Of a stretch of 32,187 nucleotides of DNA, positions 8,751-10,126 are shown piece after piece. Every line of letters begins with the position of its first letter. The stretch's first letter is position 1. Position numbers and translations under genes: made by a program. The notes beneath the pieces were generated by a model that saw only the letters and a program-made list of their open reading frames with translations, was not told the origin of the DNA and made no database searches. Source of the DNA: Microcaldota archaeon (lineage in GTDB: Archaea; Micrarchaeota; Micrarchaeia; Micrarchaeales; Micrarchaeaceae); NCBI GenBank assembly GCA_021828705.1, contig JAJZDG010000002.1, positions 1-32,187 of the forward strand, written 5' to 3'.

Positions 8751-9149
8751 ATGGATTTTTATGCAGAAGAATTAATATCACACTACGAGCATCCACACAA
8801 TAAGGGTGTCATTTCAAATTCGGATTCAAAATTTCATGAATATAATCCGACATGTGGTGACGATATAACGATATATCTAAAAATAAAAAATGATATAATA
8901 GAGGATGTTAAATTTGATGGTAATGGGTGTTCAATTAGTATAGCATCAGCCAGCATGCTCACTGATTTTGTTAAGGGAAAGAAGCTATCTGAAATAGAAA
9001 AAATGGATTTTAAAACCCTAAAAGAATTGATAAATATAGATCCAGGGCCTGCAAGGCTTAAATGCGCCACACTTTCACTTAAAACTTTAAAAGGCGCTGT
9101 ATTCTTATACGAGCATAAACCAATGGATCAAAACACAAAGAATATGTAA
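8751..9149 (+). CDS. sufU: SufU/IscU-like Fe-S scaffold or sulfur acceptor
   Basis: 132 aa; NPTCGDDI, GNGCSISIASASML, GPARLKCATLSLKTLKGAV with SufU-type insertion. Confidence 0.94.
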   Translation: MDFYAEELISHYEHPHNKGVISNSDSKFHEYNPTCGDDITIYLKIKNDIIEDVKFDGNGCSISIASASMLTDFVKGKKLSEIEKMDFKTLKELINIDPGPARLKCATLSLKTLKGAVFLYEHKPMDQNTKNM

Positions 9150-9167
9150 TCTAATCGATTACAAATA

Positions 9168-9222
9168 AATTCAGCCGACTCTTTTCATCACAGATCAGAA
9201 ATACCTCGACTCATCACGTAGT
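9168..9222 (-). ncRNA. C/D box sRNA (2'-O-methylation guide), double guide
   Basis: Minus strand: C box GTGATGA (9211-9217), guide GTCGAGGTATTT, D' box CTGA (9195-9198), TCT, C' box GTGATGA (9185-9191), guide AAAGAGTCGG, D box CTGA (9171-9174); lies wholly between convergent CDSs. Confidence 0.85.
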
Positions 9223-9265
9223 ATAATGGTATTAAAAGGATAAAAGCCTTTCATAAATAACAAAA

Positions 9266-10126
9266 CTATACAATGAGCGTATATACCGCAATCATTAAAA
9301 TAATTGATAATAATAATTTTCTTTTAATGTTCTTTTCTCCAAAGAGAAGACCACCTAAAATCACGGTTATCAATATGTTGAGTGTATTTCTCAGAGGGTA
9401 TGCGATACTTACAAATGTATTTACTAGCGCTAGATAATAGAGCAATCTATATGTAATAGTTATAATTGCAATTGCTATTATTGGATATTTGTAATATATT
9501 GTGTTTTTAACAATTTCACGTAAACCACCAAATTTTATCTGCATGTAAGCAATACCATTGATTGCTGTAAATACGCTTAAGAATAAAAGATATGTAAGTG
9601 GCTGTATAGAAAATAGCAGATATTTAAGTATGGTGGCACCAACTGCCATGAGTAACGTTAATACTATTAGAATATAGATATAGTATTTTTTGTCAAATGA
9701 CTTGGATTTTTTATTTTTATTTGATATTAAAAAATATGTAGTTATTATTATTACTGCAATGCTCACATACTTTATAGGGCTCAGTTTTTCATTTAAGAAT
9801 GCCAGAGCAAGCACTATAATTATGAATTGCGGTATTGAACTAAGAATAGGCGATACAACGCTAATATTGCCGTGTTTGTAGACTTTTGCTGCAAGTATTG
9901 CGGTCGTTGTGGAAAGAAGGCTGACAATATATAATAAGAATATGTCAAGAATGCTAATATTCAAATTAATAAATGGGATGAATGTTAATGATATTATCGC
10001 TGCAATGAGTGCGACACTTGTGGCATATGCAACCGAATGTTCCTTTTTGAGCGTCGCCTTTTCTATCAGCGCTGATACTCCTATAAGTACGCCTGATAAA
10101 AGGATTAATAGGTAATCATATATCAA
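9266..10126 (-). CDS. EamA/DMT-family transporter, multi-pass membrane protein
   Basis: 286 aa, about 10 hydrophobic segments, two-halves EamA layout, AFLNEKLSPIKYVSIAVIIITTYFLI. Confidence 0.8.
   Translation of the reverse strand: MIYDYLLILLSGVLIGVSALIEKATLKKEHSVAYATSVALIAAIISLTFIPFINLNISILDIFLLYIVSLLSTTTAILAAKVYKHGNISVVSPILSSIPQFIIIVLALAFLNEKLSPIKYVSIAVIIITTYFLISNKNKKSKSFDKKYYIYILIVLTLLMAVGATILKYLLFSIQPLTYLLFLSVFTAINGIAYMQIKFGGLREIVKNTIYYKYPIIAIAIITITYRLLYYLALVNTFVSIAYPLRNTLNILITVILGGLLFGEKNIKRKLLLSIILMIAVYTLIV

Follow-up and report, generated by a model that had tools for sequence, protein, structure and literature searches.

A conserved, very probable double-guide C/D box sRNA gene of Micrarchaeota with predicted targets in helices 69 and 71 of 23S rRNA

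Introduction

The C/D box sRNAs of archaea are RNAs of 50–60 nt that have boxes C (RUGAUGA) and D (CUGA) near their ends and, upstream of boxes D and D', guides of 10–14 nt complementary to rRNA or tRNA. They fold into a k-turn and a k-loop and bind the proteins L7Ae, Nop5 and fibrillarin. In the Rfam families known from Pyrococcus and Sulfolobus (sR2, RF01139; sR9, RF01312; snoPyro_CD, RF00095), the genes are intergenic and have a TATA-like element, and the two guides of an RNA address targets separated by less than 100 nt. The locus described here shares these family features, as well as the box sequences, the spacing and the 3-nt spacer between boxes D' and C', but its guide sequences are different and its scores lie below the Rfam gathering cut-offs. 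Guide RNAs are also found in a reduced genome in Nanoarchaeum equitans, for which 26 C/D sRNA genes are given (PMC3491384, PMC4644070); the C/D sRNA surveys that we consulted do not include Micrarchaeota. Among the papers that our literature search returned for Micrarchaeota and DPANN archaea, none reports an rRNA-guide family for Micrarchaeota, none is a guide survey and none joins Micrarchaeota with fibrillarin.

Domain IV of archaeal 23S rRNA (H68–H71; helices 68, 69 and 71) is a methylation hotspot across archaea (PMC3491384, PMC4644070). By published criteria a guide should form 9 Watson-Crick base pairs, a rule that is relaxed for double guides (PMC4644070). In bacteria, C1920 of helix 69 is the site of the 2'-O-methyltransferase TlyA (PMC12805891), which is a stand-alone protein enzyme.

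We analysed a window of 32,187 nucleotides, which is the whole stretch of DNA under study, from a micrarchaeotal genome of 0.73 Mb (77%-complete assembly). We conclude with high confidence that the window contains a real, unannotated gene for a double-guide archaeal C/D box sRNA with A1940 and C1920 of 23S rRNA as its predicted targets. Below, L-numbers are loci, G-numbers are genomes (G000 is the genome of the window), and f1 and f2 are families as defined in this analysis.

Results

The four boxes and their position in the window

A preliminary description of the locus reported the arrangement GTGATGA-12-CTGA-3-GTGATGA-10-CTGA on the minus strand. It is exact, running from position 9217 to 9171 with spacings of 12, 3 and 10 nt (Table 1), and the mature RNA probably covers about 9168–9222. 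The element was also said to lie between two convergent genes without overlapping a coding sequence, which is borne out, as sufU ends at 9149 and the DMT gene at 9266. The term "antisense" had to be narrowed: the element is on the strand opposite to sufU but shares its strand with the DMT gene upstream, and thus it is antisense to sufU only.

Table 1. Features of the C/D box element and its surroundings, in window positions
Feature	Position	Strand	Basis
sufU/NifU_N gene, convergent	8751..9149	+	PF01592, E 4e-30
Double-guide C/D box sRNA gene, box C to box D	9171..9217	-	box sequence, Rfam match, simulations, conservation
Box D, CTGA	9171..9174	-	read in the sequence; conserved
D guide, AAAGAGTCGG, 10 nt	9175..9184	-	pairs with own 23S CUGACUCU
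Box C', GTGATGA	9185..9191	-	read in the sequence; conserved
Spacer TCT between D' and C', 3 nt	9192..9194	-	read in the sequence
Box D', CTGA	9195..9198	-	read in the sequence; conserved
D' guide, GTCGAGGTATTT, 12 nt	9199..9210	-	pairs with own 23S AAUACCUCG
Box C, GTGATGA	9211..9217	-	read in the sequence; also conserved in relatives
Probable BRE/TATA promoter, GAAAGG-CTTTTAT, TATA -29 to -23 from box C	9240..9252	-	AT peak
EamA/DMT transporter gene, directly upstream, same strand	9266..10126	-	PF00892, E 5e-13

Such an arrangement is not expected by chance. Neither strict nor relaxed four-box sets appeared on either strand in 600 simulations with a first-order Markov model of the window, and base composition alone predicts about 1.5e-5 sets. 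The whole 0.73-Mb genome contains only two C-D'-C' sets, and the reversed-pattern control gave none. As in C/D sRNAs, boxes C and D of the window copy are near the ends, and the internal D' and C' boxes are separated by a short spacer. Since the terminal stem of archaeal sRNAs is often short or missing, we treated it as an optional feature and did not take it as defining. The stem that would close the k-turn has only 1 bp in the window copy, and stems of at least 5 bp occur in 19 of the 97 unique loci described below (7.8 expected, maximum 15 in 500 shuffles). The free RNA of the window copy folds no better than shuffled sequences (z 0.17), and weak free folding is usual for archaeal C/D sRNAs.

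At gathering thresholds, Rfam found only a tRNA in the window and nothing at the element. In a comparison with archaeal C/D models, a check proposed in the preliminary description, the best match at a relaxed threshold was sR2 (29.1 bits, E 4e-5), followed by sR9 and snoPyro_CD, which are also archaeal C/D families. Membership in sR2 itself was rejected because the gathering cut-off of that family is 42 bits. Thus, judging by its sequence, the element is a new member of a well-known RNA class and is covered by no curated family.

A second four-box C/D-like element, GTGATGA-TTTTAGCGCT-CTGA-GCTATGCTA-TGATGA-GGATCTTGAGTG-CTGA, was seen elsewhere in the same genome (L162, G000:C21:2341-2375, minus strand). 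It is located just upstream of a histone-like ORF and has a TATA-like sequence upstream; no convincing rRNA target was found for it.

Conservation among relatives

Using blastn with a 111-nt query, we found the element in 14 of 20 relatives, belonging to two families. GTDB contigs were then scanned with a pattern made of the D' guide, box D' and box C', with boxes C and D left out. The scan returned 102 contigs, 95 archaeal and 7 bacterial; contigs were assigned to archaea by their label or by a full box set, one being labelled "bacterium" and some "Marsarchaeota". The archaeal loci, from Micrarchaeota MAGs and genomes, number 110, of which two are truncated by a contig end and 108 are complete; the unique loci number 97. 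The named relatives with the element are Micrarchaeota MAGs and Ca. Micrarchaeum sp. A_DKE. All four boxes are kept in all of the 108 complete loci, and the position of box C reads RTGATGA or TGATGA in every one of them, although the scan did not demand it. The full set was present in none of the 7 bacterial matches, which are chance matches. The D'-C' spacer is 3 nt long in 86 of the 97 unique loci. Loss of the boxes in close relatives had been named as an outcome that would count against the element, and the opposite turned out to be the case. The view that its size and 3-nt spacer fit an archaeal C/D sRNA is likewise supported, both by this conservation and by the adjacent 23S targets.

Of the phylum's 197 genomes, 104 were matched at E <= 0.001 by a sequence profile built from 38 copies. 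Strong matches are nearly all in families f1 and f2; most of the matches beyond the order are weak, and these outside matches may represent different C/D sRNAs. The profile search gave no match in some fairly complete f1 genomes (G004, G010, G045, G047, G049 and others), which points to either loss of the RNA or a diverged guide.

Promoter and gene neighbourhood

At positions -28 to -23 upstream of box C, the AT content reaches 0.94 in 29 DMT-adjacent loci and 0.82 in the 97 loci, the background being about 0.55. If the RNA starts just before box C, an archaeal TATA box would be expected at this distance, and the conserved peak suggests a TATA promoter. The stop codon of the DMT gene is about 48 nt upstream of box C in the window. 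A DMT gene is found upstream on the same strand at 37 of the 110 loci (26–106 nt away in 34 of these), and sufU is found downstream on the opposite strand at 43 of the 110, at distances of 6–2666 nt. Many copies adjoin other genes. Such a variable context is typical of archaeal C/D sRNAs (PMC7994747).

At four loci (L017, L021, L050 and L065), a conserved block, GGGGTTGTAGCGTAACTTGGCAGC, is located just downstream of box D and resembles the 5' half of a tRNA. A tRNA start was rejected for it, as ARAGORN calls no tRNA there.

Protein machinery

The genome of the window encodes fibrillarin (E 4e-73) and two proteins of the L7Ae family (L7Ae, E 8e-27). A search for Nop5 (PF01798) gave no match in the assembly, which is 77% complete. 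Nop5 is present in 20 of 20 relatives, one of them from the same genus, and its absence is probably an assembly gap.

Targets in 23S rRNA

The D' guide forms 9 Watson-Crick pairs with the genome's own 23S rRNA in helix 71 (E. coli 1937–1945; E. coli numbering is used throughout), and the fifth nucleotide before box D' (N+5) pairs with A1940. The D guide forms 8 pairs (7 Watson-Crick and one G:U), followed by a mismatch, with the 3' strand of helix 69 (1916–1923), and its N+5 pairs with C1920. The pairing at N+5 is Watson-Crick at both sites, and the guides predict Am1940 and Cm1920, respectively. The two sites are 20 nt apart at the subunit interface. With its 9 bp the D' guide agrees with the published rule, and the D guide with its 8 bp does so only in the relaxed form for double guides. 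Shuffled D' guides reach 9 Watson-Crick pairs in 5.8% of cases, shuffled D guides reach at least 8 pairs with G:U allowed in 76%, and shuffled guide pairs have both sites within 100 nt in 0.23%. The evidence from the single genome is thus good for the two guides taken together and weak for the D guide by itself.

Among the relatives, the D' guide pairs over 9–11 bp at the same site in every genome for which we read this part of the 23S gene. Their D guide is usually AAAGAGAGTC with 1–2 further nucleotides and mostly pairs over 9–11 bp with helix 69. That of the window is 2 nt shorter than most, the nucleotides having been lost from the far part of the guide. Since its duplex is weak, the assignment of its target rests on homology with the relatives and on proximity to the other site. 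Other targets were rejected: in 16S rRNA the best match of the D' guide is 6 Watson-Crick pairs, and alternative 23S sites for this guide, whose scores in individual genomes are comparable if G:U pairs are counted, are not conserved among relatives.

Two observations concern the rRNA genes themselves. The 23S gene L170 (G031:C43:20981-24599) is 3.6 kb long and has an insertion shortly before GGTAGCG (E. coli ~1927), which separates the sRNA's two targets. The 16S genes of the window's genome (L153, G000:C56) and of relatives (L152, L154-L157) are about 2.0 kb long, which suggests rRNA introns or insertions.

Variation of the D guide

The nucleotide opposite the fifth position of the D guide is C1920 in 26 of the 97 unique loci and U1921 in 52; the other 19 have another D guide. 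Thus, the predicted target appears to slide by one nucleotide among relatives. Guides ending in GTCTG before CTGA, as in the cultured Ca. Micrarchaeum sp. A_DKE (L052), predict C1920, and those ending in GTCT or GTCG predict U1921. A 23S tree for these switches, which includes only 12 labelled genomes, requires two or more changes between the states. In one clade (G015, G025, G022), helix 69 has changed and the D guide has lost its fit to the former site; the guide of G022 pairs over 9 bp with the helix's 5' strand instead. The correlated change of D guide and helix 69 (L130, L175 and L178; for L130, the sRNA is that of G013, another member of its genus) is confined to one clade and therefore counts as one event at most. 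In several genomes (e.g., L107, L011), the D guide has no match in helix 69 and the helix sequence is intact. A compensatory change in G032 was rejected: alongside G1918A in helix 69 the guide has changed too, but the result is an A:A mismatch.

Discussion

The boxes, their spacing and conservation, the complementarity of the guides to 23S rRNA, and the fibrillarin and L7Ae genes are demonstrated here. By analogy with the class, transcription, RNP assembly and methylation would proceed as follows. An RNA of about 50 nt would be transcribed leftwards, starting shortly past the end of the DMT gene; the conserved AT peak indicates that it probably has a TATA promoter of its own. Boxes C/D and C'/D' would form the k-turn and k-loop and bind the three core proteins. 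The D' guide would pair with helix 71, the D guide would bind the 3' strand of helix 69, and fibrillarin would methylate the ribose opposite the fifth guide nucleotide at A1940 and C1920. The RNA might also act as a chaperone in the folding of H69–H71.

The proximity of the DMT stop codon speaks for reading the boxes as a chance arrangement or as part of the 3' UTR of that gene, with no guide RNA function. This is highly improbable: about 100 species have kept the element, beside a variety of genes, with fixed boxes and with guides for adjacent 23S targets, and boxes conserved outside the DMT context contradict it. A more serious alternative accepts the RNA and questions its second guide. The D' guide alone would work, giving Am1940, and the D guide of this genus would have decayed through the 2-nt deletion and no longer direct methylation. 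The short window duplex with its G:U pair fits this, as do the several relatives in which the match is lost beside an intact helix 69. Decay nevertheless seems doubtful. The guide retains the nucleotides beside box D and its N+5 pairing with C1920, the same shortened guide is found in L094 and nearly so in L074, and relaxed pairing is accepted for double guides (PMC4644070).

The closeness of the two binding sites also bears on what the RNA mainly does. By holding the 3' strand of helix 69 and helix 71 together during 23S folding, it could be primarily a chaperone, with methylation secondary, and such roles have been proposed for archaeal C/D sRNAs (PMC4644070, PMC7994747). We regard a mainly chaperone function as unlikely, because N+5 pairs Watson-Crick at both sites, as methylation requires, and because the cases proposed in PMC4644070 join sites far apart in sequence, not neighbours. 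The reading that we prefer is a methylation guide with two predicted targets.

For the evolution of this guide, the chances seem evenly balanced that the target of one orthologous guide has moved between C1920 and U1921 at least twice in one archaeal order, through a single base gained or lost before box D, and that in L043/G022 the D guide came to match the opposite strand of the same helix. If true, nature would here offer a series of retargeted guides at the inter-subunit bridge, around the nucleotide that TlyA modifies in bacteria. The approximately 100 orthologues are a handy set for studying guide loss, shift and exchange.

The nucleotide predicted here is the one whose ribose TlyA modifies, so the same ribose is apparently reached in two ways, in bacteria through a protein enzyme and in these archaea through an RNA guide, which picks the site. 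The element provides a well-supported rRNA-guide family for Micrarchaeota. RNA-guided methylation of helices 69 and 71 has apparently been retained in genomes of about 1 Mb, and the predicted Cm1920 would be RNA-guided where bacteria use TlyA.
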